This document shows, one piece after another, positions 4,340 to 33,157 of a stretch of DNA of 64,000 nucleotides (within the stretch, counting starts at the first letter, position 1; every line of letters begins with the position of its first letter). A program made the translations under genes and the position numbers. The stretch comes from Synaphobranchus kaupii. Lineage: Eukaryota > Chordata > Actinopteri > Anguilliformes > Synaphobranchidae. The notes below the pieces were generated by a model. It did not search any database and was not told where the DNA came from. It worked only from the letters and a program-made list of their open reading frames with translations. Location: NCBI GenBank assembly GCA_029718625.1, contig CM056381.1, positions 50,290,707 to 50,354,706 of the forward strand, written 5' to 3'.

Positions 4340-5625
4340 AAAGAAAGATATGAGTGGTCTTCAACTGCACAGCCTCGTTTCAGGACCAGCCTCTGAATAA
4401 TAAGTTACTACAAGGACCCGACCTGACCAACATGCTAGTTGGTATCCTCTCAAGATTTCATGAGGAGCCAATAGCTATGATGGCAGACATCGAGTCAATG
4501 TTTTATCAAGTGAAGGTGCCAGAAGAAGACGCAGATCTCCTACGTTTTCTTTGGTGGCCCAACGGCAAGCTGAACGAGCCAATGGAAGAATTTAGAACGA
4601 CAGTGCACCTCTTTGGGGCCACTTCATTGCCAAGTGTCGCCTCATACGCACTGAGAAGACCGCTGAGGACCACAAAGTCACTGCCCCTCCAGGACCTGGA
4701 TCTAAGCCATGATGCTCTACCAGTCGAGAGGGCTCTCGGTGTACAGTGGGATACAGAAACAGATACTTTCACCTACAGCATGAAGCTGCAAGACAAGCTG
4801 ATGACCAGAAGAGGAATTTTATCTGTCGTCAACTCCATCTACGACCCCCTCGGCTTCCTGGCACTGGTCATCTTGCCCGCTAAACTCCTGCTGAAAGATC
4901 TCTGTAAAAAGCAACATGGTTGGGATGAGAACATTAGTGAAAAACATGCTGACGGTTGGAAAAGATGGCTAGAAGATGTTACTCACCTCTCCGACTTCCA
5001 TGTGAACAGGTGTTTGAAACAGTGCGGTTACAGGTCACAATCCCCAGACTCGAGTTGACAGCAGTAGTCGTCGCGGTGAAGGTAGACAAGATGTTACGTC
5101 AAGAACTTCAAGTTCCACTGCAACAGTCTATCTTCTGGACAGACAGCACCACAGTGCTCAGGTACATTGACAATGAAACTGCTCATTTCAAAACCTTCGT
5201 TGCGAACAGAATCGCACTGATCTGAGAAGCCACAAAGCCATGTCAATGGGAATACTTTAGAACAACAGGAAATCCTGCAGATCAATCCAGCAGGGGCCTG
5301 AAGGCCAATAATTTGATACAAGGTGGAACATGGATTAATGGACCAAACTTCTTGCTGAGCAATGAATGTGATTGGCCGAAACAACCTGTTCAAATAAAAG
5401 AAAGCCTTGAAGATGATACTGAGGTCAAGAACACAGTTACAGTCAACACAATCAAAGTCAAAGATAAAATGGAACCAATGAACGAACTGATCAACTATTA
5501 CTTGGACTGGCATAAACTAAAAAGGTCCGTGGCCTGGATTCTAAAACTAAAGAAAACTTTGCGGCAACTGAAAGAGAAAAGAAAAGAGTTATCAAGAACA
5601 ATCAATCAAATAGAAAAGAAAAGTG
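4340..5625 (+). pseudogene. pol: BEL/Pao retrotransposon pol remnant, 5' part (RT, A17-type region, RNase H)
   Basis: From about 4354 the plus strand reads [20 protein letters not shown], then [29 protein letters not shown] and [18 protein letters not shown]. This is the hallmark reverse transcriptase text of fish BEL/Pao elements. After an internal deletion it continues through [23 protein letters not shown] and [12 protein letters not shown] (the A17/Pao region). A frameshift near 5030 leads to [14 protein letters not shown] and FWTDSTTVLRYI (RNase H), with a stop at 5223. Text like the linker before integrase (WHKLKRSVAWILKLKKTL) runs to about 5610. There the element is interrupted by a SINE and the younger insertions; it resumes at about 13293. 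It is dead: frameshifts, stops and internal deletions. Confidence 0.88.
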
Positions 5626-5629
5626 ATTT

Positions 5630-5897
5630 ACAGCAGGGGAAACAGACCTGCTCCTGTCAAGCGCACATGCAGATAATAGCAGTATAGTATAATGGTTAAG
5701 GAACTGGACTTGTAACCGAAAGGTTGCAGGTTCGATTCCCAGGTAGGACACTGCCGTTGTACCCTTGAGCAAGGTACTTAACCTGAATTGCTTCAGTATA
5801 TATCCACCTGTATAAATGGATAATATGTAACAAATGCTAAAAAGTTGTGTAAGTCGCTCTGGATAAGAGCGTCTGCTAAATGCCTGTAATGTAATGT
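5630..5897 (+). mobile_element. tRNA-derived V-SINE-like element with UnaL2-type tail
   Basis: A tRNA-like head carries an A-box-like ATAATGGTTAAGGAACTGG and a B box GGTTCGATTCC (5729-5739). It is followed by a conserved central domain (gacactgccgttgtaccctt, then gagcaaggtacttaacc). The tail contains a hairpin CGCTCT-GGATA-AGAGCG (5855-5871), then GTCTGCTAAATG and TGTAATG repeats. The GGATA loop is the feature recognised by UnaL2-type reverse transcriptase, so trans-mobilisation by such a LINE is likely. About 55 bases upstream of the A box (from gatttacagcagggg) are shared with the SINE at 20035, so they probably belong to the SINE. It lies inside the BEL/Pao remnant. Confidence 0.82.
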
Positions 5898-5973
5898 AAA
5901 AATAAACCACTTACCTTGGTGTAAGGGGAGGGAAATGGCTTGGAGGACCAGATGTGACTAAAGGGATTCTTAA

Positions 5974-7314
5974 TGTTACGATCCCGGTAAAGGTTTGGAC
6001 CTAAATGCACGACTGAGGCAGAAAATAAAGGAAAGGAGTATTTATTAAAGTTAAAGTGTTGGGGTAGTCCCAACACTGTACAGGAATGACAAAGACATAG
6101 TATTACACAGGGACTGTTAGGAAGCCCGGGACGGGCTGCTCCAAGCCGGAGCTGGGCTGGCAGGTCTGGAACGTTTCGTTCCAAGCCGGAACTGGACTGG
6201 ACTGGAACTGGACCGGGAGGTCCACACTGGAATCAGGGTCTGGAACGGATTTGTTCCAAACCGGAACTGGACTGGAACTGGAACTGGACCGGGAGGTCCA
6301 CACTGGGAACAGAGTCTGGAACGGATTGTTCCAAACCGGAACTGGACTGGACAGGTAGGTGCACGGCTCACACCTGGACTGGACTGGAACTAGCTGGGGA
6401 GCGCCTCACTATGGCAGGACAGGAACTGGACCGGAATGACTGCACCGGTACAGAACAAAACAAGCAGTAGGGGTTAGTGCAAGGGAAGGCACGGAAATGA
6501 CCGGGAGGTTCTCACGGAGGAGCAGGGCTTGATAGGTAGGTGGTTGGTGAAGCACGGCAGGGCTGGGTAGTGTGGCGTAGCTGCGGTAGGTCCGGAAGGA
6601 GCTGCCTGGTCTCCAGAGCTCCAGGAGCCGGCGCCGAAGAACTAGTTGGCTTCTTCGGTCGGACAGGAACAACTGGAGGGTAGCCAGGTAACAAGCCAAC
6701 CCGGAGCCTACACGAGCTGGAGGTGGAGGTACCGCAACACACACAACGAAAACGGGGGGAAACGAACACTGCCACGGGAGAATGGGAGCTGGGTTAGATG
6801 GAGGAGAAGGGAAACAGGTTAGCTGCATGCACAACAGGAATTGATGAGGAGGTAAACTACCAGACTGTAGTTAGGAGCGGAACCCAAGCTGCAAGGGGAT
6901 AATATCCCACAACCAAGCGAGTAGTTCGTAGTACACGACCAGGGAAACAACGAGCATTAACACCGCGTGACGATAGTTAAGCGAACAGTAAACAGGGTCT
7001 GAAGGGTTAGACATGTAATGAACCGACAAAGCAGGGGAGACAGCAGGTGGGTTAAATAAGGGAGTGAGATTGGAATCAACAAGGCACAGGTGCGGAAAGT
7101 AACCGGGAGTGCTTGTTAATTAGACAGGTGAGGAATGCAAGAAACGAGAGGGGAAGGTGATAGGCGGAAACCAAACTGGGAAACAAAGAGAGCCAAACAG
7201 AGGGGAAACGCCTAGTCCGCAGCAGCGGGGAAAACACGGACAAGGGAATCCAACAAGACACGGAGGGACATGACAAAACCGGGAAAACGGACTGGAAGGG
7301 AACGGAACGTCACA
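5974..7314 (-). repeat. 3' LTR of the non-autonomous element
   Basis: 1341 bp, TGT...ACA on the minus strand. The minus-strand poly(A) signal AATAAA lies at 6046-6041. A block of ~60-70-bp tandem units with the core CCAGTTCCGG...GTTCCAG lies at about 6150-6380; equivalent units occur in the LTRs at 20123 and 25841. The predicted R-region start (reverse complement of AATGAACCGAC, 7017-7027) is present here too. Apparently identical to the copy at 10717-12057. Confidence 0.95.
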
Positions 7315-7327
7315 GTACCCCCCCCTA
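7315..7327 (-). promoter_or_regulatory. Polypurine tract overlapping the ORF stop
   Basis: On the minus strand the ORF stop TAG runs straight into AGGGGGGGGTAC and then the LTR TGTGACG. The intact helper has the same arrangement (TGA GGGGGGGGTAC, then TGTAATG). This is the expected primer site for plus-strand DNA synthesis. Confidence 0.85.
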
Positions 7328-10300
7328 AAAAGGACGCCTCCTGGCGTCCAACAGAAACACCACCGGAGGAAGAGGGCAGGAACGTTCAGGAGGTCGGCCA
7401 CAGTGCGGACTGAACCGTACAGGAGGCCAGACGTGGCGCGGGCGGAGCCGCTCAGGAGGCCGGCTGTGGAGCGGGCGGAACCGCTCAGGAGGCCGGCTGT
7501 GGAGCGGGCGGAACCGCTCAGGAGGCCGGCTGTGGCGCGGGTGGAACCGCTCAGGAGGCCGGCTGTGGCGCGGGCGGAACCGCTCAGGAGGCCAGCCGCG
7601 GCACGGGCGGAACCGTTCAGGAGGCCAGCCGCGGCGCGGGCGGAACCGCTCAGGAGGCCGGCGGCGTAGCGGGACTGGAAGAGAGGAATGGAGCGGGACT
7701 GGATGACTGGAACGGGGCGGGACTGGATGACTGGAACGGGGCGGGACTGGATGACAGGAACGGGGCGGGACTGGATGACTGGAACGGGGCGGGACTGGAT
7801 GACTGGAACGGGGCGGGACTGGATGACTGGAACGGGGCGGGACTGGATGACTGGAACGGGGCGGGACTGGATGACTGGAACGGGGCGGGACTGGGGGACT
7901 GGAACGAGGAGGGACTGGGGGACTGGAACGAGGAGGGACTGGGGGACTGGAACGAGGAGGGACTGGGGGACTGGAACGAGGAGGGACTGGGGGACTGGAA
8001 CGAGGAGGGACTGGGGGACTGGAACGAGGAGGGACTGGGGGACTGGAACGAGGAAGGACTGGGGGACGGGAACGGGACGGGACTGGATGACTGGAACGGG
8101 GCGGGACTGGAGGGCTGGAACGTGGCGGGACGGGAGGGCTGGAACGTGGCGGGCCGGGAGGGCTGGAACGTGGCGGGACAGAAGGGCAGGAAGGGGAACG
8201 GACAGGAGGGCTGGAAGGGGAACGGACAGGAGGGCTGGAAGGGGAACGGACAGGAGGGCTGGAAGGGGAACGGACAGGAGGGCTGGAAGGGGAACGGACA
8301 GGAGGGCTGGAAGGGGAACGGACAGGAGGGCTGGAAGGGGAACGGACAGGAGGGCTGGAAGGGGAACGGACAGGAGGGCTGGAAGGGGACCGGACAGGAG
8401 GGCTGGAAGGGGAACGGACAGGAGGGCTGGAAGGGGAACGGACAGGAGGGCTGGAAGGGGAACGGACAGGAGGGCTGGCAGGGGAACGGACAGGAGGGCT
8501 GGCAGGGGAACGGACAGGAGCGGCGATGACAGCATCGCCCTGGAAACAGGAGGCGGTAACGACTGTCTCGCCCAGGAAGCAGGAGGCGGCGACGACTGCG
8601 TCGCCCTGGAAGCAGGAGGCGGCGACGGCTGCATCGCCCTGGAAGCAGGAGGCGGCGACGACTGCATCGCCCAGGAGGCAGGAGGCGGCGACGGCTGCGT
8701 CGCCCTGGAAACAGGAGGCGGCGACTGCTGCATCGCCCTGGAAGCAGGAGGCGGCGACGACTGCGTCGCCCTGGAAGCAGGAGGCGGCGACGACTGCGTT
8801 GCCCTGGAAGCAGGAGGCGGCGACGGCTGCATCGCCCTGGAAGCAGGAGGCGGCGACGGCTGCGTCGCCCTGGAAACAGGAGGCGGCGACGACTGCATCG
8901 CCCAGGAGGCAGGAGGCGGCGACGGCTGCGTCGCCCTGGAAACAGGAGGCGGCGACTGCTGCATCGCCCAGGAAACAGGAGGCGGCGACGGCTGCGTCGC
9001 CCTGGAAACAGGAGGCGGCGGCGGCTGCCTCGCCCTGGAAACAGGAGGCGGCGACTGCTGCATCGCCCAGGAAACAAGAAGCGGCGACTGCTGCGTCGCC
9101 CTGGAAACAGGAGGCGGCGACGGCTGCGTCGCCCTGGAAACAGGAGGCGGCGACTGCTGCATCGCCCAGGAAACAGGAAGCGGCGACGGCTGCCTCGCCC
9201 TGGAAACAGGAGGCGGCGACTGCTGCATCGCCCAGGAAACAGGAAGCGGCGACTGCTGCGTCGCCCTGGAAACAGGAGGCGGCGACGGCTGCGTCGCCCT
9301 GGAAACAGGAGGCGGCGACTGCTGCATCGCCCAGGAAACAGGAAGCGGCAACTGCTGCGTCGCCCTGGAAACAGGAGGCGGCGACGGCTGCGTCGCCCTG
9401 GAAACAGGAGGCGGCGACTGCTGCATCGCCCAGGAAACAGGAGGTGGCGACGGCTGCGTCGCCCTGGAAACAGGAGGCGGCGACTGCTGCATCGCCCAGG
9501 AAACAGGAAGCGGCAACTGCTGTGTCGCCCTGGGAACAGGAGGCGGCGACGGCTGCGTCGCCCTGGAAACAGGAGGCGGCGACGGCTGCCTCGCCCTGGA
9601 AACAGGAGGCGGCGACTGCTGCATCGCCCAGGAAACAGGAAGCGGCGACTGCTGCGTCGCCCTGGAAGCAGGAGGCGGCGACGACTGCATCGCCCTGGAA
9701 ACAGGAGGCGGCGACTGCCGCGTCGCCCTGGAAACAGGAGGCGGCGACTGCCGCGTCGCCCTGGAAACAGGAAGCGGCAACTGCTGCGTCGCCCTGGAAA
9801 CAGGAGGCGGCGACTGCCGCGTCGCCCTGGAGACAGGAAGCGGCGACGGCTGCATCGCCCTGAAAGCAGGAGGCGGCGACGACTGCATCGCCCTGGAGGC
9901 AGGAAGCGGCGAAGGGCTCCTCGCCCTGGGGACGGGCGACGACCACCACATCATTGCCCTGGAGAGGGGCGGTGGAGGCCGTATCTTTGCCCTGGGTACG
10001 GGCGGCGAGCAACGTCCGCGTAACCTGCTCTGACAGGCCCCTTAAAAGCTCAAACATCCCATCAAGACGGCGGCCCCGTCGATCACCAACCGCGGTCTGG
10101 CAGGCGAGGGCGTGACGGATCTGCCCCAAAACATCGTCTTGGGAGCTGGAGGGAGCGATGGTGTCTGCATTATCGCCCTGGGGAAGGGCAGCGGAAAAGG
10201 ACTCCTCGTCCAGGGAGCTGCCGACAAGCGACGTCTGCGAAACTTGCTCCGCCAGACCCTTCAGCACCTCCAACACGTGATCCACCCGGCGGTCCAGTAG

Positions 10301-10714
10301 ATCGTCGGTCGCGGATTGGGAGGCGAAGGCGTGACGGAACTGCTCCACAACGTCATCTTGGGAGCTGGAGGGAGCGACGACGACTGCATAGTCACCCTGG
10401 GGACGGACAGCGGTGACCGTGACATCGCCCTGAGGGCTGGCCGGCGGTGGCTGTGTAGCCTTGGAGGCCGGCCGGTGGGGACGGCGATGGCGTCGCCTTG
10501 GAGACCGGCCTGTGGTGACGGCGAGTGCGTCGCCCTGGAGGCCGGCGGTCCTAGCATCGCCCGGGCTTTGGCTCTCACCCAGGCACTGGCTCAGGTGCTT
10601 CTCCAGAGCATCCTGGCAGGCCAGTTCGTAGCGGGATTGCCTAGCAGCATAGCGGCCGAAGGCGGGGTGGAGCGGGGACAGGAAGTCGGCTAGGTCCTTA
10701 TCTGGTCGGTTCAT
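7325..10714 (-). CDS. Giant tandem-repeat ORF with duplicated Gag-N-like modules
   Basis: 1129 codons filling nearly the whole interior. I chose the ATG at 10714 (MNRPDKDLADF) because the predicted RNA starts inside the LTR and this ATG lies 3 nt from the LTR; the open frame upstream is LTR sequence. Residues ~1-115 are unique. At ~115-230 there are two diverged copies of the helper Gag N-terminus: EQFRHAF...DRRVDHVLEVLK and GQIRHALACQTAV...GRRLDG. Next come about 41 11-residue units like ASCFQGDAAVA, about 35 8-residue units (VRSPSSPP, PPRSSPPV), 9 units like RPPERFRPRHS, and a short tail ending DARRRPF. There is no capsid core, zinc knuckle or enzyme domain. By analogy it could act as a Gag-like protein: a helper-binding N-terminus and a basic Arg/Ser/Pro tail that may bind RNA. 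That function is inference. Confidence 0.72.
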   Translation of the reverse strand: MNRPDKDLADFLSPLHPAFGRYAARQSRYELACQDALEKHLSQCLGESQSPGDARTAGLQGDALAVTTGRSPRRRHRRPHRPASKATQPPPASPQGDVTVTAVRPQGDYAVVVAPSSSQDDVVEQFRHAFASQSATDDLLDRRVDHVLEVLKGLAEQVSQTSLVGSSLDEESFSAALPQGDNADTIAPSSSQDDVLGQIRHALACQTAVGDRRGRRLDGMFELLRGLSEQVTRTLLAARTQGKDTASTAPLQGNDVVVVARPQGEEPFAASCLQGDAVVAASCFQGDAAVAASCLQGDAAVAASCFQGDAAVAASCFQGDAAVAASCFQGDAAVAASCFQGDAVVAASCFQGDAAVAASCFLGDAAVAASCFQGEAAVAASCFQGDAAVAASCSQGDTAVAASCFLGDAAVAASCFQGDAAVATSCFLGDAAVAASCFQGDAAVAASCFQGDAAVAASCFLGDAAVAASCFQGDAAVAASCFQGDAAVAASCFLGDAAVAASCFQGEAAVAASCFLGDAAVAASCFQGDAAVAASCFQGDAAVAASCFLGDAAVAASCFQGEAAAAASCFQGDAAVAASCFLGDAAVAASCFQGDAAVAASCLLGDAVVAASCFQGDAAVAASCFQGDAAVAASCFQGNAVVAASCFQGDAVVAASCFQGDAAVAASCFQGDAAVAASCLLGDAVVAASCFQGDAAVAASCFQGDAVVAASCFLGETVVTASCFQGDAVIAAPVRSPASPPVRSPASPPVRSPSSPPVRSPSSPPVRSPSSPPVRSPSSPPVRSPSSPPVRSPSSPPVRSPSSPPVRSPSSPPVRSPSSPPVRSPSSPPVRSPSSPPVRSPSCPSVPPRSSPPGPPRSSPPVPPRSSPPVPPRSSHPVPSRSRPPVLPRSSPPVPPRSSPPVPPRSSPPVPPRSSPPVPPRSSPPVPPRSSPPVPPRSSPPVPPRSSHPVPPRSSHPVPPRSSHPVPPRSSHPVPPRSSHPVPPRSCHPVPPRSSHPVPPRSSHPVPLHSSLPVPLRRRPPERFRPRRGWPPERFRPCRGWPPERFRPRHSRPPERFHPRHSRPPERFRPLHSRPPERFRPLHSRPPERLRPRHVWPPVRFSPHCGRPPERSCPLPPVVFLLDARRRPF
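7387..7672 (-). repeat. 33-bp tandem array (about 9 units), C-terminal part of the giant ORF
   Basis: Plus-strand unit begins CAGGAGGCCGGCTGTGG, period 33 bp, about nine imperfect copies. In the ORF frame it encodes 11-residue units of the type RPPERFRPRHS, rich in Arg and Pro. Confidence 0.9.
7673..8525 (-). repeat. 24-bp tandem array (about 35 units) in the giant ORF
   Basis: Successive blocks of 24-bp units on the plus strand. GACTGGATGACTGGAACGGG type covers about 7690-7885 and GGACTGGGGGACTGGAACGA type about 7886-8060. Mixed units follow to 8182, and then CAGGAGGGCTGGAAGGGGAA type to 8525. In the ORF frame these encode PPRSSPPV-type and then VRSPSSPP-type octapeptides. The blockwise homogeneity indicates recent unit-by-unit expansion. 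Confidence 0.92.
8526..9870 (-). repeat. 33-bp tandem array (about 41 units) in the giant ORF
   Basis: Plus-strand unit GGAAACAGGAGGCGGCGACT plus 13 bases, period 33 bp, about 41 imperfect copies. It encodes ASCFQGDAAVA-type 11-mers with a Cys in nearly every unit. Related QGD motifs occur singly in the unique N-terminal region, so the array probably grew from a pre-existing motif. Confidence 0.92.
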
Positions 10715-10715
10715 T
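10705..10715 (-). promoter_or_regulatory. Self-priming primer-binding site, overlapping the start codon
   Basis: Minus-strand AATGAACCGAC, one base from the end of the 5' LTR. It is the perfect 11-nt complement of GTCGGTTCATT at 11770-11760, the predicted first 11 nt of the transcript. The ORF start codon (10714-10712) lies within it. Tf1/sushi-group elements are known to prime reverse transcription from the folded-back 5' end of their own RNA. Confidence 0.82.
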
Positions 10716-10716
10716 C

Positions 10717-12057
10717 TGTTACGATCCCGGTAAAGGTTTGGACCTAAATGCACGACTGAGGCAGAAAATAAAGGAAAGGAGTATTTATTAAAGTTAAAGT
10801 GTTGGGGTAGTCCCAACACTGTACAGGAATGACAAAGACATAGTATTACACAGGGACTGTTAGGAAGCCCGGGACGGGCTGCTCCAAGCCGGAGCTGGGC
10901 TGGCAGGTCTGGAACGTTTCGTTCCAAGCCGGAACTGGACTGGACTGGAACTGGACCGGGAGGTCCACACTGGAATCAGGGTCTGGAACGGATTTGTTCC
11001 AAACCGGAACTGGACTGGAACTGGAACTGGACCGGGAGGTCCACACTGGGAACAGAGTCTGGAACGGATTGTTCCAAACCGGAACTGGACTGGACAGGTA
11101 GGTGCACGGCTCACACCTGGACTGGACTGGAACTAGCTGGGGAGCGCCTCACTATGGCAGGACAGGAACTGGACCGGAATGACTGCACCGGTACAGAACA
11201 AAACAAGCAGTAGGGGTTAGTGCAAGGGAAGGCACGGAAATGACCGGGAGGTTCTCACGGAGGAGCAGGGCTTGATAGGTAGGTGGTTGGTGAAGCACGG
11301 CAGGGCTGGGTAGTGTGGCGTAGCTGCGGTAGGTCCGGAAGGAGCTGCCTGGTCTCCAGAGCTCCAGGAGCCGGCGCCGAAGAACTAGTTGGCTTCTTCG
11401 GTCGGACAGGAACAACTGGAGGGTAGCCAGGTAACAAGCCAACCCGGAGCCTACACGAGCTGGAGGTGGAGGTACCGCAACACACACAACGAAAACGGGG
11501 GGAAACGAACACTGCCACGGGAGAATGGGAGCTGGGTTAGATGGAGGAGAAGGGAAACAGGTTAGCTGCATGCACAACAGGAATTGATGAGGAGGTAAAC
11601 TACCAGACTGTAGTTAGGAGCGGAACCCAAGCTGCAAGGGGATAATATCCCACAACCAAGCGAGTAGTTCGTAGTACACGACCAGGGAAACAACGAGCAT
11701 TAACACCGCGTGACGATAGTTAAGCGAACAGTAAACAGGGTCTGAAGGGTTAGACATGTAATGAACCGACAAAGCAGGGGAGACAGCAGGTGGGTTAAAT
11801 AAGGGAGTGAGATTGGAATCAACAAGGCACAGGTGCGGAAAGTAACCGGGAGTGCTTGTTAATTAGACAGGTGAGGAATGCAAGAAACGAGAGGGGAAGG
11901 TGATAGGCGGAAACCAAACTGGGAAACAAAGAGAGCCAAACAGAGGGGAAACGCCTAGTCCGCAGCAGCGGGGAAAACACGGACAAGGGAATCCAACAAG
12001 ACACGGAGGGACATGACAAAACCGGGAAAACGGACTGGAAGGGAACGGAACGTCACA
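10717..12057 (-). repeat. 5' LTR of the non-autonomous element
   Basis: 1341 bp, apparently identical to 5974-7314. On the minus strand U3 is 287 nt (12057-11771), followed by a long R of about 1 kb. AATAAA is at 10789-10784, close to the LTR end. Confidence 0.95.
11760..11802 (-). promoter_or_regulatory. LTR promoter: TATA-like box and predicted RNA start
   Basis: Minus-strand TTATTTAA (11802-11795). Its TATTTAA starts at 11801, 31 nt upstream of 11770, where the self-priming sequence GTCGGTTCATT begins. The helper has the same 31-nt spacing. The start site is inferred from spacing and the PBS match. Confidence 0.7.
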
Positions 12058-12064
12058 CTTAAAG

Positions 12065-13862: not shown

Positions 13863-14210
13863 TTCATTACATTACATTACATTACATTCATTTAGCAGAC
13901 GCTTTTATCCAAAGCGACGTACAATAAGTGCATACAGAGACGTCATCAAGATCACTACAGAACAGACAAGACAAAGCACATCCTTCCCATAATGTAGCAG
14001 CTATCCCTAGTAATGAACATTGACTGTAGTTCACAGTAAGCTGTGGGTAAATCAGCTATACTACACTTCTATTCTAAATACTATTATAAAACTATAACAA
14101 ACAGACAGGAAAACACAGGGAACTAGTAAACACAGGGAACTGATATTCCTAGGTTAGAATATCAGTCAAGGTGGAGTCTGAAGAGGTGTGTCTTTAGGCC
14201 TCGACGGAAT
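13863..14210 (-). repeat. UnaL2-like non-LTR retrotransposon 3' fragment
   Basis: Starts with (ATTAC)n and then CATTTAGCAGACGCTTTTAT followed by CCAAAGCGACGTACAATAAG. It is the minus-strand orientation of the tail family at 2701-3240. It interrupts the BEL/Pao integrase: coding text stops at 13862 and resumes at about 14215. Confidence 0.65.
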
Positions 14211-18019: not shown

Positions 18020-19763
18020 AATATTATTCGCACTAACCATTATGAGTTCCCTGTCATTCCTGACAGTGCTGTTATTTTACAAAATATATGTGGTTAAATT
18101 TTGTTATAAGCACCTGCAACAGCTAAGAATAAGCTACCAATGGCTTCCGTCTCACCATAGAAAGCGCCAAATTAGCGTGCTTGTTCAACGAATTTCGTTT
18201 GATTATGCAATGAACTCATGTTCAAGCTTCATCCGAAGTTTATTAGGCCTACCTGCATTCTAATTTTGATTAATAACATAAATAACGTTATTTTGCCTTA
18301 ATGATGACACTAAATACAATAAAGCTGTCAGGTTGGCAACCCATAGGTTCACGCATATTTTCCCTTGTTTTATAATATCCTGCTTATGGAAATGTGACCA
18401 ACCTGTTTTACTGGTAGTGTAATGCTTTAAAACAATCTACTTTTCTGAATATCAGAAACAACGTGATCGGAACCGTGGTTCCAGAGAAAAAGCCCAAAAC
18501 GCAGTTTTTTACAGAATTAATTAAAAAGTGCCTAGAGGGAGACATTCATGGCTATTGCCAGGCCGAGGAGCAGAGCACAGGGTCGGGCATAGGCTTGTTC
18601 GAACCGGGAGACTCCCCTGAACGATAGAATACCAGAAACAACGTGATCGGAACCTTGTTTCCCGAGAAAAAGCCCAAAACGCAGTTTTTTACAGAATTAA
18701 TTCAAAGTACCTCGTGGGAGACATTTATGGCTATTTCCAGGCCCAGGAGCAAAGCACAGGCTTGGGCATAGGCTTGTTGGAACCGGGAGACTCCCCTGAA
18801 CGATCGAATACCAGAAACAATGCGATCGGAACCGGGGTTCCCGAGAAACAACGCGATCGGGACCGTGGTTCCCGAAAAAAAGCCCAAAACGAATATTATT
18901 CGCACTAACCATTATGAGTTCCCTGTCATTCCTGACAGTGCTGTTATTTTACAAAATATATGTGGTTAAATTTTGTTATAAGCACCTGCAACAGCTAAGA
19001 ATAAGCTACCAATGGCTTCCGTCTCACCATAGAAAGCGCCAAATTAGCGTGCTTGTTCAACGAATTTCGTTTGATTATGCAATGAACTCATGTTCAAGCT
19101 TCATCCGAAGTTTATTAGGCCTACCTGCATTCTAATTTTGATTAATAACATAAATAACGTTATTTTGCCTTAATGATGACACTAAATGCAATAAAGCTGT
19201 CAGGTTGGCAACCCATAGGTTCACGCATATTTTCCCTTGTTTTATAATATCCTGCTTATGGAAATGTGACCAACCTGTTTTACTGGTAGCGTAATGCTTT
19301 AAAACAATCTACTTTTCTGAATATCAGAAACAACGTGATCGGAACCGTGGTTCCAGAGAAAAAGCCCAAAACGCAGTTTTTTACAGAATTAATTAAAAAG
19401 TGCCTAGAGGGAGACATTCATGGCTATTGCCGGGCCCAGGAGCGGAGCGGAGCACAGGCTCGGGCATAGGCTTGCTTGAACGGGGAGACTCCCCTAAACG
19501 ATCGAATACCAGAAACAATGCGATCGGAACTGTGGTTCCCGAGAAAAAGCCCAAAACGCAGTTTTTTACAGAATTAAATAAAAAGTGCCTCACGGGAGAC
19601 ATTTATGGCTATTGCCAGGCCAAGGAGCGGAGCACAGGGTCGGGCATAGGCTTGTTCGAACCGGGAGACTCCCCTGAACGATCTCATACCAGAAACAATG
19701 CGATCGGAACCGTGGTTCCCAAGAAACAACGCCATCGGAACCGTGGTTACCGTGAAAAAGCCC
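18020..19763. repeat. 872-bp tandem duplication
   Basis: The segment starting AATATTATTCGCACTAACCA at 18020 restarts at 18892. Equivalent landmarks (e.g. 18421 and 19293) keep an offset of 872. Only a few differences are visible over the first ~430 bp (e.g. 18311 region A to G), so the duplication is recent. Its downstream part consists of ~180-bp satellite units that have since been rearranged. Confidence 0.9.
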
Positions 19764-20010
19764 AAAACGCAGTTTTTTACAGACTTTCTTAAAAAGTGCT
19801 TCGCGGGAGACATGTGTGGCTATTTCTGGGCCCAGGAGGGGAGCACAGGCTCGGGCATAGGCTTGTTGGAACCGGGAGACTCCCCTGAACGATCGAATAC
19901 CAGAAACAATGCGATTGGAACCGGGGTTCCCGAGAAACAACGCGATCGGGACCGTGGTTCCCGAAAAAAAGCCCAAAACGCAGTTTTTTACATAATTAAT
20001 TAAAAAGTGC
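18453..20010. repeat. ~180-bp satellite units
   Basis: Units begin CAGAAACAACGTGATCGGAA and carry GTTCCCGAGAAAAAGCCCAA, ACGCAGTTTTTTACAGAATT and GGGAGACTCCCCTGAACGAT. Starts seen at 18453, 18633, 18812, 19325, 19510, 19689 and about 19899; spacing is about 180 bp except where the 872-bp duplication intervenes. Because units are near 3n long, open frames of 60-200 codons appear on both strands; these are not treated as genes. Confidence 0.85.
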
Positions 20011-20034
20011 TGGTATCCAGAAAGACTGTGAAAA

Positions 20035-20122: not shown

Positions 20123-21506
20123 TGTAATGTTCCGCTCCCTTCCTGTCCGTTTTCCGTGTTTTCCTGTTTTCCCTCCGTGTCATGTTGGATCCCTTTGTCC
20201 GTGTTTTCCCCTCTGCCGCGGACTAGGCATGTCCTTCCCTGTCTTGTTCGTCTGGTTGTTTTGGTTTACTTCCGCCTTTCACTCCCTCCCCCTCGTTGCA
20301 TGCATTTCCTCACCTGGTGTCTTGTAATCACTCCCGGTTTATGTTCACACCTGTTTCGTATTTTGTCACATTAGTTAGCCCTATATAGTCTTTCGGCTGG
20401 CTGCCAGTCGGCGCCAGTTCGTTAACTATCATCACTTGGTGTAGTGCTTGACTCGTTAACTGGTCTCCCCGTGTAAACTATTCGCGTGTTTGTGGAATGT
20501 GTTTCCCATACAGCGTATAGTCCCTTGCAAACTACAGTCTGGTAGTTTACCTTCCGCACAATTCCTGTCATTATTATATTTGCTAACTTGTTTCCCTTCT
20601 CCTCCATCCAACCCTACTCCCTATCTCCCGTGGCAGTGTTTGTTTTCCCCGTGTTTGTTTGTGTGTGTTGCGGTACCTCCACCTCCAGCGCGTGTAGGCT
20701 CCGGGGTGATTCGCTACCTGGCTACTCTCCAGTTGTTCCTGTCCGACCGAGGAAACCACCCAGTTCTTCGGCGCCGGCTCCTGGAGCTCTGGAGACGGTC
20801 AGCTACCTCCGGACCTACCGCAGCTACGCCACACCACTCTGCCCTGCCGTGCTTCCGCAAAGCCTCCCGACTTCCAAACCCATCACCTCCGTGAGAACCT
20901 CCCGGTCTTTCCCGTGCCTTCCCTTGCACTAACCCTCCTCTGTTTTGTTTTTCTATACCGGTGCAGTCAGCCCGGTCCAGTCCTGCCCTGCCGTAGTGAG
21001 TCGCTCCCCTGCCAGTTCCAGTTCAGTCCCGGCGTGAGTGTTACAGGCACTCGCTCAAGTCCAGTTCCGGTTTGGGACATTCCGTTCCAGTACCTGTACC
21101 TGTGTGGACCTCCCGGTCCAGTTCCAGTCCAGTCCAGTTCCGGTTTGGGACATTCCGTTCCAGTACCTGTACCCGTGTGGACCTCCCGGTCCAGTCCAGT
21201 CCAGTCCAGTTCCGGTTTGGGACAATTCCGTTCCAGTACCTGTTTCCCGTGTGGACCACCCGGTCCAGTTCCAGTCCAGTCCAGTTCCGGTTTGGAACAG
21301 CCCGTTCCAGAACCTCCAGTCCAGCTCCGGCTTGGAGCAGCCCGCCCCGGGCTTCCAGGCGCAAGATCTCCTAATTCTGTGTGTGTGTTGCCTTTCCTGT
21401 ACAGTGTTGGGACTACCCCAACACTTAATTTATTAAATACCATCTTTTGTGAATTCTGTCTCCTGGTCGTTGCACTTGGGTTCGTCCCGTACACAGATAC
21501 GTAACA
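20123..21506 (+). repeat. 5' LTR of the intact chromovirus
   Basis: 1384 bp, TGTAATGTTCCG...ACGTAACA. U3 is 290 nt to the predicted start at 20413; R is about 1 kb long and U5 short. A poly(A)-signal variant ATTAAA is at 21432-21437. About four ~60-70-bp units (CCAGTTCCGGTTTGGGACAT core) lie at 21058-21345. Confidence 0.97.
20382..20423 (+). promoter_or_regulatory. LTR promoter: TATA box and predicted RNA start with self-priming sequence
   Basis: TATATA at 20382-20387 is 31 nt upstream of 20413. There GCCAGTTCGTT (20413-20423) begins, the exact complement of the PBS. The coincidence of standard TATA spacing and the PBS match makes 20413 the likely first transcribed base. Confidence 0.78.
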
Positions 21507-21507
21507 G

Positions 21508-21518
21508 AACGAACTGGC
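21508..21518 (+). promoter_or_regulatory. Self-priming primer-binding site
   Basis: AACGAACTGGC, one base after the 5' LTR. It is a perfect 11-nt complement to 20413-20423, and the match does not extend on either side. This is the arrangement known for Tf1/sushi elements, whose first 11 RNA nucleotides prime minus-strand synthesis instead of a tRNA. Confidence 0.85.
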
Positions 21519-21525
21519 CAAAAAC

Positions 21526-22482
21526 ATGGACCCAGCCGACCTGGAGCAGATTCGGCACGCCTTCTCCTGCCAAACTGCGGTCAGCGACCAACAGGGCCGT
21601 CGTCTGGACGACGTGTTGGAAGTACTGAAGAGCATCACGGAACAAGTTACTCAGCTGTCTCTTCACCAGCCGCTTCCGCGTATTCCAGTGGGCCCTACAC
21701 CGCCCGCTCCGGACCCCCCGGCGGACCCTCCTGTGTCCGCTTCATTTCGGGAACCTCGCGTTCAACATCCGGAGCTATTCCGCGGGGAATTGGGGAAATG
21801 TCGCGAATTTCTGATGAAATGCGACATTGTCTTCCGGATGCAGCCCTCCTCCTTCGCCTCCGACCCATGTAAGATCGCGTTCATCATGAGCAGCCTGGGA
21901 GGAGGTGCCCTGGAGTGGGCTACATCCATCTGGGATAGCCAAGCCGCGCTCTGCAACAACTTCGCTGCCTTCACCGCCGAGATGCGGCGCGTGTTTGACC
22001 ACCCTACCTGTGGGCGAGATGCAACTCAGCGCCTACTTCAAGTCCGTCAGGGGGGTCGCAGCGTCGCAGAGATGGCCATCCAATTCCGTACCCTCGCCGC
22101 GGAGTCCGGATGGAACGACACCGCCCTTCAGGGGGCTTTCCGCCAGGCACTCAGCGAGGAGCTCAAAGACCAACTAGCCACCCGTGAGGAATCCACCTCC
22201 CTCAATAGCCTGATTAGCCTGGCCATAGCAGTCGACAACCGTCTTCGTATCCGGGCCCGTGAGCGTGGGGGGAATCCCGGTCACCTTCCTCATATTCGCT
22301 CTCACCCATCTGTTTCTGGATTCAGGGCGGCGTCTGGGGTCTCCGAAGAGGAGCCCATGCAACTGGGCAGAGTTGTGGTCAACTCTGCGGAGCGCCAACG
22401 CCGTCAGCGATCCAGGTCGTGCTTCTACTGTGGCAAACCTGGCCATCAGATCGCCTCGTGTCCAATCCGCCCAAAAGAATAG
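21526..22482 (+). CDS. gag: Gag polyprotein of the chromovirus
   Basis: 318 codons, starting at the first ATG after the PBS ([16 protein letters not shown]). The N-terminal ~50 residues look helical ([18 protein letters not shown]). They are the segment duplicated in the giant ORF at 7325-10714. The centre ([19 protein letters not shown] through [18 protein letters not shown]) is a typical retrotransposon Gag capsid-like domain. A single CCHC zinc knuckle, [14 protein letters not shown], sits at about residues 300-313. The product is the structural protein that would assemble the particle and bind RNA. The stop follows a -1 slippery site, so most ribosomes should end here and a fraction continue into pol. 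No defects seen. Confidence 0.95.
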
Positions 22483-22552
22483 GCTCGCCAGTTAAACTAG
22501 GCGTACTGACGAGCCCTATCATTCCCTGCCATGCAGCCCAGAATCGCCTAGT
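22470..22552 (+). promoter_or_regulatory. Predicted -1 ribosomal frameshift signal (heptamer plus pseudoknot)
   Basis: C CCA AAA (22470-22476) lies in the correct gag reading phase, 3 nt before the gag stop. After a 5-nt spacer, GGCTCG (22482-22487) can pair with CGAGCC (22510-22515). The loop sequence ACTAGGCG (22496-22503) can pair perfectly with CGCCTAGT (22545-22552), giving an H-type pseudoknot. The heptamer fits the X XXY YYZ rule; the fold is from base pairing by eye. Confidence 0.72.
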
Positions 22553-25500
22553 CTTCAAGGCCACTCTCCTGTGGAGCGACAAGTCCTTAGTTTCGTCGGC
22601 TCTCATCGACTCTGGAGCCGACGCCAACTTTATGGACACCACCTTCGCCCAGAGGGCCGGCATACCTACGGAGCTTCTTCCATCACCCATTACTGCCTTC
22701 GCCTTAGACGGTCGGAGCTTGGGATTAGTGACCCACTCCACCGTGTCCTTACAGCTTGTCCTCTCTGGCAATCACCGGGAGAGCATTCAACTCCTCCTCA
22801 TCAACTCCACACAGTCAACCATAGTTTTAGGTCAGACCTGGCTCCGTCTCCATAACCCACACATTGACTGGCAGGGCGGACGCATCCTGGCGTGGAGTGG
22901 CCACTGCCTGGCTAGCTGTCTCCGCTCCGCGCTTCCCCCTCCGGGGTCCAAGAATCCCAGCACCAACCTACCCGAACCCGATATGTCCACCGTTCCCAAA
23001 CAGTATCACGACCTCAGTCGCACCTTCTCGAAAGCACGTGCTCTGTCCCTACCTCCTCATCGCCCGTACGACTGTTGTATCGATCTGCTGGCGGGAGCCA
23101 AACTTCCGTCCGGCCGTCTCTACAGTCTGTCGGGACCAGAGAAACTCGCCATGGAGGAATATATCCATGAGTCCCTCGCCTCGGGCATCATCCGTCCCTC
23201 CTCTTCTCCGGTTGGTGCTGGGTTCTTTTTCGTGGGGAAAAAGGACGGCTCACTACGGCCCTGCATCGACTACCGGGGACTCAATTCCATCACCATCCGC
23301 AACAAGTATCCTCTCCCCCTCATTAACACTGCTTTTGAACCCCTCTCGCAGGCCGTCATTTTCACGAAACTCGACCTCCGTAATGCGTACCACCTGGTGC
23401 GCATACGGGAGGGGGATGAGTGGAAGACTGCCTTCAATACCCCGTTGGGCCACTATGAGTACCTGGTGGTCCCTTTCGGCCTTACTAACGCCCCGGCAGT
23501 CTTCCAGGGCATGGTTAATGACGTCCTGCGAGACCTGTTGGGTAAGACCGTTTTTGTTTACATTGACGACATTTTAATTTTTTCCAAGTCCCCTCAGGAG
23601 CACATTCTCCATGTCCGGGAGGTTCTCCAGCGGCTCCTCGAGAACCAGCTCTTCGTGAAGGCGGAGAAATGCTCATTCCACGTCTCTTCAGTCCCGTTCC
23701 TCGGCTTCATTATCGAGGAGGGCAGTATCCGGGCGGATCCGGTCAAAGTCAAGGCGGTGACGGAATGGCCCCAACCCACCTCTCGTAAGCTGCTACAACA
23801 GTTCCTTGGTTTTGCTAATTTTTATCGTCGTTTTATCCGAAATTACAGTGTCATTGCTGCCCCCCTTACAAAACTTACCTCCACCACTTTTTCTTTCTGT
23901 TGGAATCCCGAAGCTCAGCGTGCTTTTGAGCAACTCAAAACGCGGTTTTCCTCAGCCCCTATCCTTTGCCACCCTGATCCCTCCCGTCAGTTTACGATCG
24001 AGGTGGACGCCTCCGACACCGGCGTGGGGGCCATTCTGTCCCAACGTGCCGCCTTAGACAACAAGCTCCATCCCTGTGCCTTTTTCTCCCGGAGGCTGTC
24101 CTCCGCTGAGCAGAATTATGATGTCGGGGATCGGGAACTTCTTGCCATTAAGCTGGCTCTTGAGGAGTGGCGCCACTGGCTGGAGGGGGCAGGTACCCCC
24201 TTTGTTGTTTTGACTGACCACCAAAATTTAATTTATTTAAGATCTGCCAAGAGGCTGAATGCCAGACAGGCTAGGTGGTCACTTTTCTTTGCCCGGTTTA
24301 ATTTTTCTTTGTCCTATCGCCCCGGTTCCCGCAATATTAAGGCAGATGCCTTATCCCGTGTGTTTTCCCTTCCCTCCAGTCCTGCTGACCCCGAAACCAT
24401 TCTCCCAGCGTCCTGTATGGTGGCTGCGGTCTCCTGGAGGATTGAGGAAATCGTGAGGTCCGCCCAGACCTCCCACCCTGACCCCCGTAATAACCCTAAC
24501 CCTGCCCTGTTTGTTCCCGACTCCGTCCGCTCCCAGGTCCTTGAGTGGGTTCACGCCTCCTGCCTGGCGTGTCACCCAGGTGTTGCCAGGACGACCGCCC
24601 TCGTCAGGAGGAGCTTTTGGTGGCCCACCCTCAAGGAGGATACCCGTGCCTTTGTTCTGGCCTGCTCTGTATGCGCCAGGAGCAAGGCTTCCCACCAGCC
24701 TCCCTCTGGTCATCTCCTTCCCCTCCCTGTCCCGGGCCGTCCTTGGAGCCACATTGGGGTGGACTTCGTAACCGGTCTGCCGTTGTCAGATGGCAACTCT
24801 GTCATTTTGACAATTGTGGATCGGTTCTCCAAGGCGGCCCACTTTATTCCCCTCCCCAAGCTCCCGTCCGCCCTCGAAACGGCGGAGCTCCTGGTGGTAC
24901 ATGTGGTCAGGCTGCACGGGATCCCTTCCGATATCGTGTCGGATCGTGGGCCCCAATTCTCCTCCCAGGTCTGGAAGGCGTTCTGTGTAGCCCTGGGGGC
25001 CTCGGCCAGTCTTTCGTCTGGCTTCCATCCCCAGTCGAACGGCCAGGCAGAGAGGGCGAACCAGGACCTGGGGGCCGCCCTGCGGTGCGTCACGGCTCGC
25101 AACCCCGCCTCCTGGAGCCGTTTCCTTCCCTGGGTGGAGTACTCCCACAACTCCCTTAAGAGTACCTCCACCGGGTTATCCCCTTTCGAGTGTTCGTTAG
25201 GGTACCAACCCCCTCTCCTGTCGGTCCAGGAGGCCGAGGTAGCAGTCCCCTCTGTCAGGGCCCACATCCTCAAATGCAAGCGCATTTGGAGGCTTACACG
25301 CACCGCACTCCTACGTTCCAATTCCCGGTCCCAGCGTCTGGCGGACCTGCACAGGACCGCAGCCCCCAAATACAGGGCCGGTCAGCAGGTCTGGTTGTCC
25401 ACGTCTAACATTTCCCTTCCCTCCTCCTCTAAAAAGCTTCGGCCCCGGTTCATTGGTCCCTTCCCTGTTGTACGTCTTGTTAACCCTGTTTCTGTCAAGC

Positions 25501-25829
25501 TCTCCCTCCCTGCCTCCCTCAAAGTTTACCCCGTTTTTCATGTCTCCCAAGTCAAGCCTGTCGCCTCCAGCCCCCTCAGTGCCCCTACCCTCCCTCCGCC
25601 TCCTGTCCGGGTCATCAACAACGCCCCGGCCTATACGGTGGACCGCATCATTGACATCCGCCGTAAGGGTCGGGGCTTCCAATACCTCGTGGACTGGGAG
25701 GGGTATGGCCCTGAGGAGCGGTCATGGCTCCACAAGGGCCTCATCCTGGATCAAACTTTAATCCAGGATTTCCACAGTCGCTTCCCATTCAAGACCAGGC
25801 CGCCAGGTACGCCAGGTGGCGTACGTTGA
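22474..25829 (+). CDS. pol: Pol polyprotein: protease, RT, RNase H, integrase, chromodomain
   Basis: Expressed in the -1 frame from gag; coordinates start at the presumed shift. The frame is open from at least 22419, and there is no need for its own start codon. Domains in order: aspartic protease ([12 protein letters not shown], Asp codon at 22608); reverse transcriptase with YIDD at 23559-23570; RNase H ([19 protein letters not shown]). Integrase follows with a zinc-binding N-terminus ([10 protein letters not shown] ... CSVCAR) and DD35E residues at Asp 24762, Asp 24942 and Glu 25050 (35 residues between the last two). Last is a chromodomain ([32 protein letters not shown]). The stop overlaps the polypurine tract. 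All catalytic residues I looked for are present, with no internal stop. Chromodomains usually direct integration to particular chromatin. Confidence 0.96.
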
Positions 25830-25840
25830 GGGGGGGGTAC
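25827..25840 (+). promoter_or_regulatory. Polypurine tract
   Basis: TGAGGGGGGGGTAC directly before the 3' LTR, including the pol stop codon TGA. It matches the tract of the non-autonomous element. Confidence 0.88.
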
Positions 25841-27224
25841 TGTAATGTTCCGCTCCCTTCCTGTCCGTTTTCCGTGTTTTCCTGTTTTCCCTCCGTGTCA
25901 TGTTGGATCCCTTTGTCCGTGTTTTCCCCTCTGCCGCGGACTAGGCATGTCCTTCCCTGTCTTGTTCGTCTGGTTGTTTTGGTTTACTTCCGCCTTTCAC
26001 TCCCTCCCCCTCGTTGCATGCATTTCCTCACCTGGTGTCTTGTAATCACTCCCGGTTTATGTTCACACCTGTTTCGTATTTTGTCACATTAGTTAGCCCT
26101 ATATAGTCTTTCGGCTGGCTGCCAGTCGGCGCCAGTTCGTTAACTATCATCACTTGGTGTAGTGCTTGACTCGTTAACTGGTCTCCCCGTGTAAACTATT
26201 CGCGTGTTTGTGGAATGTGTTTCCCATACAGCGTATAGTCCCTTGCAAACTACAGTCTGGTAGTTTACCTTCCGCACAATTCCTGTCATTATTATATTTG
26301 CTAACTTGTTTCCCTTCTCCTCCATCCAACCCTACTCCCTATCTCCCGTGGCAGTGTTTGTTTTCCCCGTGTTTGTTTGTGTGTGTTGCGGTACCTCCAC
26401 CTCCAGCGCGTGTAGGCTCCGGGGTGATTCGCTACCTGGCTACTCTCCAGTTGTTCCTGTCCGACCGAGGAAACCACCCAGTTCTTCGGCGCCGGCTCCT
26501 GGAGCTCTGGAGACGGTCAGCTACCTCCGGACCTACCGCAGCTACGCCACACCACTCTGCCCTGCCGTGCTTCCGCAAAGCCTCCCGACTTCCAAACCCA
26601 TCACCTCCGTGAGAACCTCCCGGTCTTTCCCGTGCCTTCCCTTGCACTAACCCTCCTCTGTTTTGTTTTTCTATACCGGTGCAGTCAGCCCGGTCCAGTC
26701 CTGCCCTGCCGTAGTGAGTCGCTCCCCTGCCAGTTCCAGTTCAGTCCCGGCGTGAGTGTTACAGGCACTCGCTCAAGTCCAGTTCCGGTTTGGGACATTC
26801 CGTTCCAGTACCTGTACCCGTGTGGACCTCCCGGTCCAGTTCCAGTCCAGTCCAGTTCCGGTTTGGGACATTCCGTTCCAGTACCTGTACCCGTGTGGAC
26901 CTCCCGGTCCAGTCCAGTCCAGTCCAGTTCCGGTTTGGGACAATTCCGTTCCAGTACCTGTTTCCCGTGTGGACCACCCGGTCCAGTTCCAGTCCAGTCC
27001 AGTTCCGGTTTGGAACAGCCCGTTCCAGAACCTCCAGTCCAGCTCCGGCTTGGAGCAGCCCGCCCCGGGCTTCCAGGCGCAAGATCTCCTAATTCTGTGT
27101 GTGTGTTGCCTTTCCTGTACAGTGTTGGGACTACCCCAACACTTAATTTATTAAATACCATCTTTTGTGAATTCTGTCTCCTGGTCGTTGCACTTGGGTT
27201 CGTCCCGTACACAGATACGTAACA
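25841..27224 (+). repeat. 3' LTR of the intact chromovirus
   Basis: 1384 bp; by eye it differs from the 5' LTR only at 26819 (C where the 5' copy has T at 21101). Confidence 0.97.
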
Positions 27225-27390
27225 CTGGACTTTGATTCCCAGGTAGGACACTGCCGTTGTACCCTTGAGCAAGGTAATTAACCTGAATTGCTTCAGTATA
27301 TATCCAGCTGTATAAATGGATAAATGTAATAAGATGTTGTCTGGATTAAGAGCGTCTGCTAAATGCCTGTAATGTAATGTAATGTAATGT
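27225..27390 (+). mobile_element. SINE, right part
   Basis: Continues the SINE broken at 20122. CTGGACTTTGATTCCCAGG has lost about 20 bp around the B box compared with the copy at 5630. The central domain (acactgccgttgtacccttg) follows, then a mutated UnaL2-type tail and TGTAATG repeats to about 27390. Confidence 0.85.
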
Positions 27391-29812: not shown

Positions 29813-29835
29813 TATGGAGGACTATTCAACCCAAA

Positions 29836-30045
29836 ATTAAAATGAAAATGAAAACGAAAATGAAAATGAAAATGGAGGATTATTCAGCCCAAAATTAAAA
29901 TGAAAATTAAAATCTTTTCATTTTCGTTTTAATTTTCGTTTTAATTTTCATTTTCATTTTCATTTTCATTTTCATTATCATTTTCGTTTTCGTTTTCATT
30001 TTCATTTTCATTTTCATTATCGTTTTCATTTTCATTTTCGAGCTG
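29836..30045. repeat. AAAATG/AAAACG hexamer repeat, left end of the palindrome
   Basis: Runs of GAAAATGAAAATG and the reverse-complement CATTTTCATTTT, switching strand within the tract. The mirrored tract lies at 32678-32870. Confidence 0.9.
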
Positions 30046-30324
30046 TACTATATGTAAATGAGGGGGTATGGTCTTCCTATCAATCAAAGCAAGCAGGGTG
30101 GGCCTCATACAGGTTTAGTGCAGTAGCACTTAATGAACACTAGGGGGAGCATAGCATAGGGATGGGTAACAGTCTATGCTTGATACTATGCTCTCAGGGC
30201 ACTCGTAAGTTTTAATGGATGAAATGATGAAGAATCTGAGCAGTGTTATAAAGTATTCTTGTTTTATGAAATAAACTGAGCTAGCTAGCCAGCGCTATGC
30301 TGTGTAGGCTATAGGTCAAACCTG

Positions 30325-30519
30325 CGAGGTGGAAAATCCAGGTTCAGAAAGTGAAAGTCCTCCCCAATCATTTGTTACAATCACCTGGATTTGCTAATTG
30401 TCTCAATTCTTCAGCCAAGAGGTAGGAGCTAACTAGGCTCATTAGTGAAATCGTGAGTTCATGGGTGGAAGAAACACGGCAGGACTTTTACTTTCTGACC
30501 CCTGGAATTTCCACCTCTG
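30325..30519. mobile_element. hAT-type MITE inside the left palindrome arm
   Basis: Ends CGAGGTGGAAAATCCAGG and (inverse) CAGAGGTGGAAATTCCAGG; 8-bp target duplication CAAACCTG at 30317-30324 and 30520-30527. Related copies occur at 57273-57365 (partial) and 57779-57973. Confidence 0.85.
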
Positions 30520-32195: not shown

Positions 32196-32390
32196 CAGAG
32201 GTGGAAATTCCAGGGGTCAGAAAGTAAAAGTCCTGCCGTGTTTCTTGCACCCATGAACTCACGATTTCACTAATGAGCCTAGTTAGCTCCTACCTCTTGG
32301 CTGAAGAATTGAGACAATTAGCAAATCCAGGTGATTGTAACAAATGATTGGGGAGGACTTTCACTTTCTGAACCTGGATTTTCCACCTCG
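32196..32390. mobile_element. Mirror copy of the hAT-type MITE in the right palindrome arm
   Basis: Inverse of 30325-30519, including the flanking duplication CAGGTTTG at 32391-32398. It arrived by duplication of the whole arm rather than a second insertion. Confidence 0.85.
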
Positions 32391-32677
32391 CAGGTTTGAC
32401 CTATAGCCTACACAGCATAGCGCTGGCTAGCTAGCTCAGTTTATTTCATAAAACAAGAATACTTTATAACACTGCTCAGATTCTTCATCATTTCATCCAT
32501 TAAAACTTACGAGTGCCCTGAGAGCATAGTATCAAGCATAGACTGTTACCCATCCCTATGCTATGCTCCCCCTAGTGTTCATTAAGTGCTACTGCACTAA
32601 ACCTGTATGAGGCCCACCCTGCTTGCTTTGATTGATAGGAAGACCATACCCCCTCATTTACATATAGTACAGCTCGA

Positions 32678-32870
32678 AAATGAAAATGAAAACGATAATG
32701 AAAATGAAAATGAAAATGAAAACGAAAATGATAATGAAAATGAAAATGAAAACGAAAATGAAAAGATTTTAATTTTAATTTTGGGCTGAATAATCCTCCA
32801 TTTTCATTTTCCATTTTCATTTTCGTTTTCATTTTCATTTTCGTTTTCATTTTCATTTTAATTTTGGGTT
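32678..32870. repeat. AAAATG/AAAACG hexamer repeat, right end of the palindrome
   Basis: Mirror of 29836-30045; translates as meaningless Glu-Asn or Lys-Met runs. Confidence 0.9.
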
Positions 32871-33157
32871 GAATAGTCCTCCATATTTGATAGCAGTGTT
32901 GGGTTCAGTTCAATGTAGGTTCAAATAGAAGAATCAAGACATACAGCAAATCAGTAGCAAAATATTTATTTGCATGTGCACATAGAGGTGTGGGCACAAT
33001 CTTAATGGATGAAAAAAGATAGGCTTTGTTACAAGTTAAGCAGGACCTTCACTCCCTTCTATAGCAATGGTACAGCATATACAGCACAAATGGACAATGG
33101 TATAAAAGAAATATAAGAACATGCAAATATCGCCTCAGCCTCCACAAACATGCGTAA

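Follow-up and report, generated by a model that had tools for sequence, protein, structure and literature searches.

The DNA analyzed here (the window) is a 64,000-nucleotide stretch of contig CM056381.1 from the fish Synaphobranchus kaupii, positions 50,290,707 to 50,354,706 of the forward strand. It carries two related long terminal repeat (LTR) retrotransposons. The element that is the subject of this report occupies 5974-12057 and its sense strand is the minus strand. A complete relative, found by BLAST of the element against the window, lies at 20123-27224 on the plus strand and is referred to as the helper, its candidate role. The two LTRs of the element, each 1341 bp on the minus strand, are located at 10717-12057 (5′ LTR in the sense of the element) and 5974-7314 (3′ LTR) and are identical at 1341 of 1341 positions. 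The LTRs begin with TG and end with CA, and a target-site duplication CTTAA is present on each side (5969-5973 on the left and 12058-12062 on the right). The interior (7315-10716) is 3402 bp long with 68% G+C. It includes a primer binding site AATGAACCGAC at 10705-10715 and a polypurine tract AGGGGGGGGTAC at 7315-7326, both on the minus strand. Protease, reverse transcriptase (RT), RNase H and integrase are not recognized in the element by Pfam. These termini, the duplication, the primer site and the polypurine tract are those of a non-autonomous LTR retrotransposon.

A single open reading frame (ORF) runs uninterrupted from ATG to stop for 1129 codons (10714 to 7325, minus strand), with a predicted protein of 115 kDa. 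Its ATG is included in the 11-nt primer site and its stop is 10 nt short of the 3′ LTR. The ORF consists of a head, an acidic Cys-bearing array and a basic tail rich in Pro, Arg and Ser. The large 33-bp array (8519-9904, minus strand) contains 42 units of SCFQGDAAVAA with 42 Cys; 23 distinct unit types occur among the 42, in mixed order. It is followed by a 24-bp array (7670-8518, minus strand) of 35 units, 14 of VRSPSSPP type and 21 of VPPRSSPP type, and by a small basic 33-bp array (7397-7669, minus strand) of about 8 units of PERFRPRHSRP type. The net charge is −5 in the head, −41 in the large array, then +35 and +23, and the last 397 residues carry net +58. The three arrays sum to 2508 bp and show 0% indels in Tandem Repeats Finder. 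A preliminary description of this DNA had proposed a young element that has lost its enzymes, with one ORF spanning the interior from primer site to polypurine tract and about 2.5 kb of it in three arrays of 33-bp and 24-bp units, and our measurements agree with it on all of these points. The length of the ORF alone is weak evidence for coding, because the unit lengths of the arrays are all multiples of three and other frames are long too. The longest open runs per frame are 909 and 766 codons in the other sense frames and 787, 590 and 487 codons in the antisense frames. Pfam gives no match for the full ORF or for a 944-residue overlapping frame, and only two unrelated matches below threshold for the head (E 0.089 and 0.2).

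The helper is a chromodomain Ty3/gypsy element about 8,000 bases from the element, with both gag and pol uninterrupted. Its LTRs of 1384 bp (5′ LTR 20123-21506, 3′ LTR 25841-27224, plus strand) are identical at 1383 of 1384 positions with one mismatch, and CTGGA is duplicated outside. The gag gene (21526-22482, plus strand) encodes 318 residues with a predicted N-terminal helix, a PEG10/Ty3-like capsid and a zinc knuckle. Retrotrans_gag, DUF4939 and the zinc knuckle score above the Pfam cut-offs, while Ty3_capsid at 23.3 bits is below its cut-off of 29.1. The predicted Gag structure has a match to the capsid domain of PEG10 (E 1.5e-05) and a weaker one to the Ty3 capsid (E 4.2e-03). The best-scoring database relative of helper Gag is a Synaphobranchus kaupii protein with 77% identity over 62% of the query, and another from the same species shows 81% identity over 49%. 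The pol reading frame (22263-25829, plus strand) contains RT, RNase H, integrase, a Tf2-1-like SH3 domain and a chromodomain above cut-offs, the last placed after integrase (Chromo E 4.7e-10, SH3_Tf2-1 E 4.9e-18). Three Pfam matches for the protease fall below their cut-offs, and a DSG motif is present. The DSGAD, YIDD and SDRGPQF stretches, which we take to be catalytic motifs, are intact. Pol is in the −1 frame relative to gag, and a CCCAAAA heptamer is found in register at the end of gag (22470-22476), which is likely a −1 frameshift site judging from its sequence. An autonomous element more closely related to the one at 5974-12057 may be present in another part of the genome.

The element and the helper have several cis signals in common. 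Their LTRs are 75.6% identical over 1300 aligned positions. The identity is uneven along the alignment, with 79 to 91% in blocks from 500 to 1200 and 56 to 59% in blocks from 100 to 400, and 11 of the 13 indels are not multiples of three. The LTR 3′ ends have CGTAACA in common; the 5′ ends are TGTGACGTTCCG and TGTAATGTTCCG. The polypurine tract matches the helper letter for letter, and AGGGGGGGGTACTGT, which joins the tract to the start of the LTR, is present at two places in the window, one per element. Next to the tract, a 7-bp hairpin is predicted at 7332-7349 (minus strand) with a counterpart at 25807-25824 in the helper, and in the predicted folds its stem is kept between the two elements by one compensated pair. 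In both elements an 11-nt primer site starts at the second base after the 5′ LTR and is complementary to a segment of the element's own LTR. In the element this segment, GTCGGTTCATT (11760-11770, minus strand), lies at the predicted RNA 5′ end. In both cases a TATA-like box, TATTTAA in the element, starts 31 nt before this segment (LTR positions 257 and 288; 260 and 291 in the helper). The two primer sites have different bases at positions 3, 8 and 10, each matched by a corresponding difference between the LTR segments, so that all three changes are compensated. These compensated changes argue that self-priming was retained in both lines, as far as complementarity can tell. Of 3000 Markov LTRs generated for the element, none contained an 11-nt self-match, and of 3000 generated for the helper, 5 did; when any start in the first 20 bases was allowed, 20 of 2000 shuffles gave a match of at least 11 nt. 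Self-priming is known in the Tf1/sushi group of yeast and vertebrates, according to the available part of PMC6317226; PMC4600332 and PMC2864245, also available in part, give background on self-priming and chromoviruses. By complementarity the helper has the self-primer of this group, with the RNA start being predicted, and the primer site of the element is likely a self-primer of the same type. Priming by tRNA was considered and rejected. Primer sites for tRNA usually start with TGG, and the element interior starts with GAATGAACC, without TGG (no tRNA set was part of this comparison).

Two further features are observed inside the LTRs. A 75-bp minisatellite with 2% indels (Tandem Repeats Finder) is located at 6163-6351 and 10906-11094, and the helper LTR is 71 bases longer in this stretch. 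A hairpin is predicted in the LTRs of both elements (6628-6660, 11371-11403, 20745-20777 and 26463-26495) with energies of −10.4 and −9.4 kcal/mol. A packaging or dimerization signal is a possible role for this predicted fold.

The ORF head contains two stretches related to the N-terminus of helper Gag. Copy A is residues 122-164 (10223-10351) and copy B is residues 195-237 (10004-10132), both on the minus strand. ORF residues 123-163 and 196-236 each align with helper Gag residues 6-46, with 24 of 41 identical in both cases (E 8e-12 and 7e-13), and significant Gag similarity is limited to this range. Copy A, the only copy run against the Gag family profile, gives E 1e-05. Both copies sit in a 219-bp in-frame duplication with 71% identity. 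From these alignments, part of the head almost certainly derives from gag. The corresponding stretch of helper Gag is one predicted helix at residues 3-46, with block predicted local distance difference test (pLDDT) values of 86-95 over residues 1-40. A third Gag stretch at the ORF start (residues 15-46) is not supported: profile comparison gives a probability of 0.4 with E 0.16, the structure model is also poor and the heptad signal is absent (P 0.46). Degenerate versions of the 11-residue QGD unit that makes up the large array recur along the head. Eight stretches in the 810-nt head share at least 19 of 33 bases with the large-array consensus; all eight are on the sense strand and six are in the main frame. 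The two off-frame stretches are the second and third units of a 37-bp array (10458-10546, minus strand), which has 2.4 copies of diverged QGD-type units and 0% indels (Tandem Repeats Finder). The unit length of this array is not a multiple of three, so that its later units are out of frame: those starting at ORF nucleotides 168, 205 and 242 lie in frames 0, 1 and 2, respectively, with a return to frame 0 at 273.

The element is very probably a satellite of this Tf1/sushi-type chromovirus group, because it has a complete relative, a partly Gag-derived head and compensated self-primers. The preliminary description was right in calling it a young-looking non-autonomous LTR element that lacks recognizable enzymes and has one repeat-built ORF. 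It overlooked the helper at 20123-27224, the descent of part of the head from Gag (24 of 41 identical residues per copy) and the likely nature of the primer site as a self-primer, given the 11-nt complementarity to its own LTR.

The reading we favor, tentatively and at slightly less than even probability, is that the satellite is copied by a sushi-type chromovirus like that at 20123-27224 and that its ORF makes a Gag mimic predicted to dock into helper particles. The RNA would start about 31 nt past the start of the TATA-like box, and its 5′ end would pair with its own primer site. It would then be packed into helper Gag particles, and helper Pol would copy and integrate it. The ORF protein, if made, would join helper Gag through the two N-terminal stretches, and its basic tail would hold RNA, favoring packaging of its own message. 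That the protein is made and acts through Gag is conceivable on the sequence data, at somewhat below even likelihood. The charge layout of the ORF resembles Gag, though in order only, with an assembly stretch first and a basic, possibly RNA-binding end last. A fuller version is rather unlikely: here the satellite would have built its own Gag mimic by repeat expansion, with doubled Gag docking helices, an acidic Cys spacer and a basic Pro-Arg tail replacing capsid and nucleocapsid, and its RNA would ride in helper particles.

Several results suggest that the ORF likely has a coding history. The main frame is free of stops throughout the 270 codons of the head, which precede the large array, while each of the five other frames has between 4 and 11. 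Simulated sequences matched in composition are open across the head in only 10 of 5000 cases at order 1 and in 21 of 5000 at order 2; this openness is unlikely by chance and is partly inherited from gag. If the stretch in helper Gag changed neutrally, 25.9 residue changes would be expected on average. Copy B shows 19 (P 0.002), and 12 of the 13 hydrophobic sites are preserved in it (P 0.025). The ratio of nonsynonymous to synonymous substitution (dN/dS) is 0.15 between copy B and the helper, where dS of 1.8 is near saturation and the helper's own branch is included, and 0.42 between copy A and the helper, again including that branch. Within the arrays, the ratio of nonsynonymous to synonymous diversity (piN/piS) in the main frame is 0.25 for the large array and 0.20 for the 21 VPPRSSPP units, compared with 2.93 and 1.32 (large array) and 4.00 and 1.14 (VPPRSSPP units) in the other sense frames. 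Changes in the arrays were also counted on a minimum spanning tree, because variants spread with unit copying, and were compared with a null of random placement at the same base and CpG status. Taking all of the low array diversity as selection was rejected, as this event-based control removed most of the signal. A simpler binomial test of the large array without base and CpG control gives P 0.014, and the stricter value, given below, is preferred.

Other results weigh against a working protein. In the stricter test, synonymous changes in the large array are 17 of 37 against a null of 12.6, which is borderline (P 0.053). There is no synonymous excess in the 24-bp array for all units (11 of 28, P 0.47) or for its subtypes alone (P 0.55 and 0.88), nor in the small 33-bp array (4 of 19, P 0.64), where piN/piS in the main frame is 1.25. 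One antisense frame has piN/piS as low as the main frame (0.19 and 0.13), with stops in 1 and 9 units; by geometry the third codon positions of this frame would coincide with those of the main frame. Comparing copy A with copy B gives a dN/dS of 0.64 for 43 codons (0.62 for 73), with too few data to distinguish the ratio from 1. Copy A does not differ significantly from neutral change (P 0.064 for residue changes, 0.20 for hydrophobic sites), and the lack of stops in copies A and B is uninformative (P 0.31 and 0.25). The head model has helices at the Gag-derived stretches, but its mean pLDDT of 48 is poor, and heptad periodicity is not significant in copy A (P 0.07) or copy B (P 0.23), compared with P 0.015 in the helper. 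Pfam detects no capsid or zinc knuckle in the ORF. The leader contains four upstream ATGs in the element versus one in the helper. In a protein database that includes fish proteins, no homologue with E up to 0.001 is found among 7901 candidates for the 261-residue head or among 7990 candidates scored for ORF residues 1-735. The earlier suggestion that the protein matters is supported in part only: the open head is unlikely by chance, but the array event counts are borderline or null.

The strongest rival is a satellite that moved through RNA signals only, with an incidental ORF made of an old gag piece and of G+C-rich arrays in which the unit length is by chance divisible by three. This is quite possible. 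It fits the open runs of 487 to 909 codons in the five other frames, the borderline or null event counts and the divergence of copies A and B; it does not explain why the head is open in the main frame alone, why copy B has diverged less than under neutral change and why the frame is restored after the 37-bp array. Translation itself could be what is selected, with a frame reaching to just before the 3′ LTR sparing the RNA from nonsense-mediated decay and the protein sequence mattering little. The element ORF and helper pol do stop 10 and 11 nt before their 3′ LTRs, one base apart, and the head is open beyond chance while array event counts are near neutral. However, in both elements the stop is still followed by an untranslated RNA stretch that makes up most of the 3′ LTR, the conservation of copy B would not be expected, and we regard this explanation as improbable. 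The product of the ORF may instead be a piece of Gag that hampers the helper in the manner of Ty1 p22, so that the element persists by limiting damage or by competing with full Gag. The Gag-derived segment and the undetected capsid are compatible with this, and p22 is a Gag piece disturbing particle assembly in the available part of PMC4599808; yet the ORF keeps the N-terminal Gag stretch only, and this also has little chance of being correct. An assembly artefact, in which repeats were collapsed or expanded or the LTRs were made identical by the assembler, is very improbable in view of the 23 distinct unit types in mixed order and the clean target duplication.

No second copy of the element is found in the window by BLAST. 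Two DNA patterns have no match in viral contigs, and a pattern used to look for homologues of the ORF matched 103 stretches in viral contigs and 195 in prokaryote genomes, none of which was confirmed; this absence says little because the DNA collections searched are viral and prokaryotic. Other repeats are observed around the two elements. UnaL2 LINE 3′ elements are present at 5836-5889 and 13882-13936 (Rfam), and the sequence around the first one (5731-5899) recurs beside the helper at 27231-27382. Fragments of other retroelements occur at 4354-5058 and 646-1146, with a Pao-type peptidase (Pfam E 3.5e-17) and also a weak integrase core match below the cut-off (E 7.4e-4). A tandem block of about 870-bp units, 95% alike, covers 18020-20011 and ends about 110 bp before the helper. 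An inverted pair of about 1.3 kb with 96% identity is located at 29813-31112 and 31604-32885.

A satellite and a candidate helper with uninterrupted genes, only 8 kb apart and each with an identical or near-identical LTR pair, offer a natural pair from an animal in which trans-mobilization could be tested. A functional ORF product would represent a Gag-derived protein that tandem repeats have remade and would illustrate how new retroelement proteins can arise. Among the matches listed in the open-licence literature (Repbase and Dfam lie outside this scope), no publication deals with this element or with a Gag-derived ORF built from repeats, and none describes such tandem-repeat remaking.

Among known classes, TRIM elements have a very short interior and LARD elements a long non-coding one. 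The interior here is 3402 bp with a 1129-codon ORF and corresponds to neither. The following comparisons refer to the available parts of the cited papers. RLG_Quinta of wheat, the non-autonomous partner of RLG_Cereba, keeps GAG and is proposed to supply it (PMC11302176). Like that pair, the element and its autonomous chromovirus-type partner have LTR termini, primer site and polypurine tract in common, and like RLG_Quinta the element keeps one ORF with Gag sequence and a part of unknown function (PMC11302176). Unlike RLG_Quinta, it has the Gag N-terminal stretch alone, twice; the primer sites of the two partners differ by three compensated changes instead of being identical, and arrays occupy most of the ORF (PMC11302176). 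By the test made it is not a Gag-only partner of the RLG_Quinta type because no capsid was detected. Retand elements of plants have interior tandem arrays and extra ORFs, and some members are non-autonomous (PMC11963269). The element is similar in its arrays, extra coding and non-autonomous state, but the extra ORFs of Retand are mostly antisense, lie between pol and the 3′ LTR and are not called Gag-derived (PMC11963269). The Ty1 p22 protein is likewise a Gag piece apart from full Gag, and it acts on Gag; it differs in being the C-terminal half, translated from an alternative transcript that the autonomous element itself produces (PMC4599808). The element itself is without pol, unlike the Tf1/sushi chromoviruses. 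With those of vertebrates, the element and the helper share the self-primer layout, and the helper adds the chromodomain and the Tf2-1-like domain (PMC6317226).
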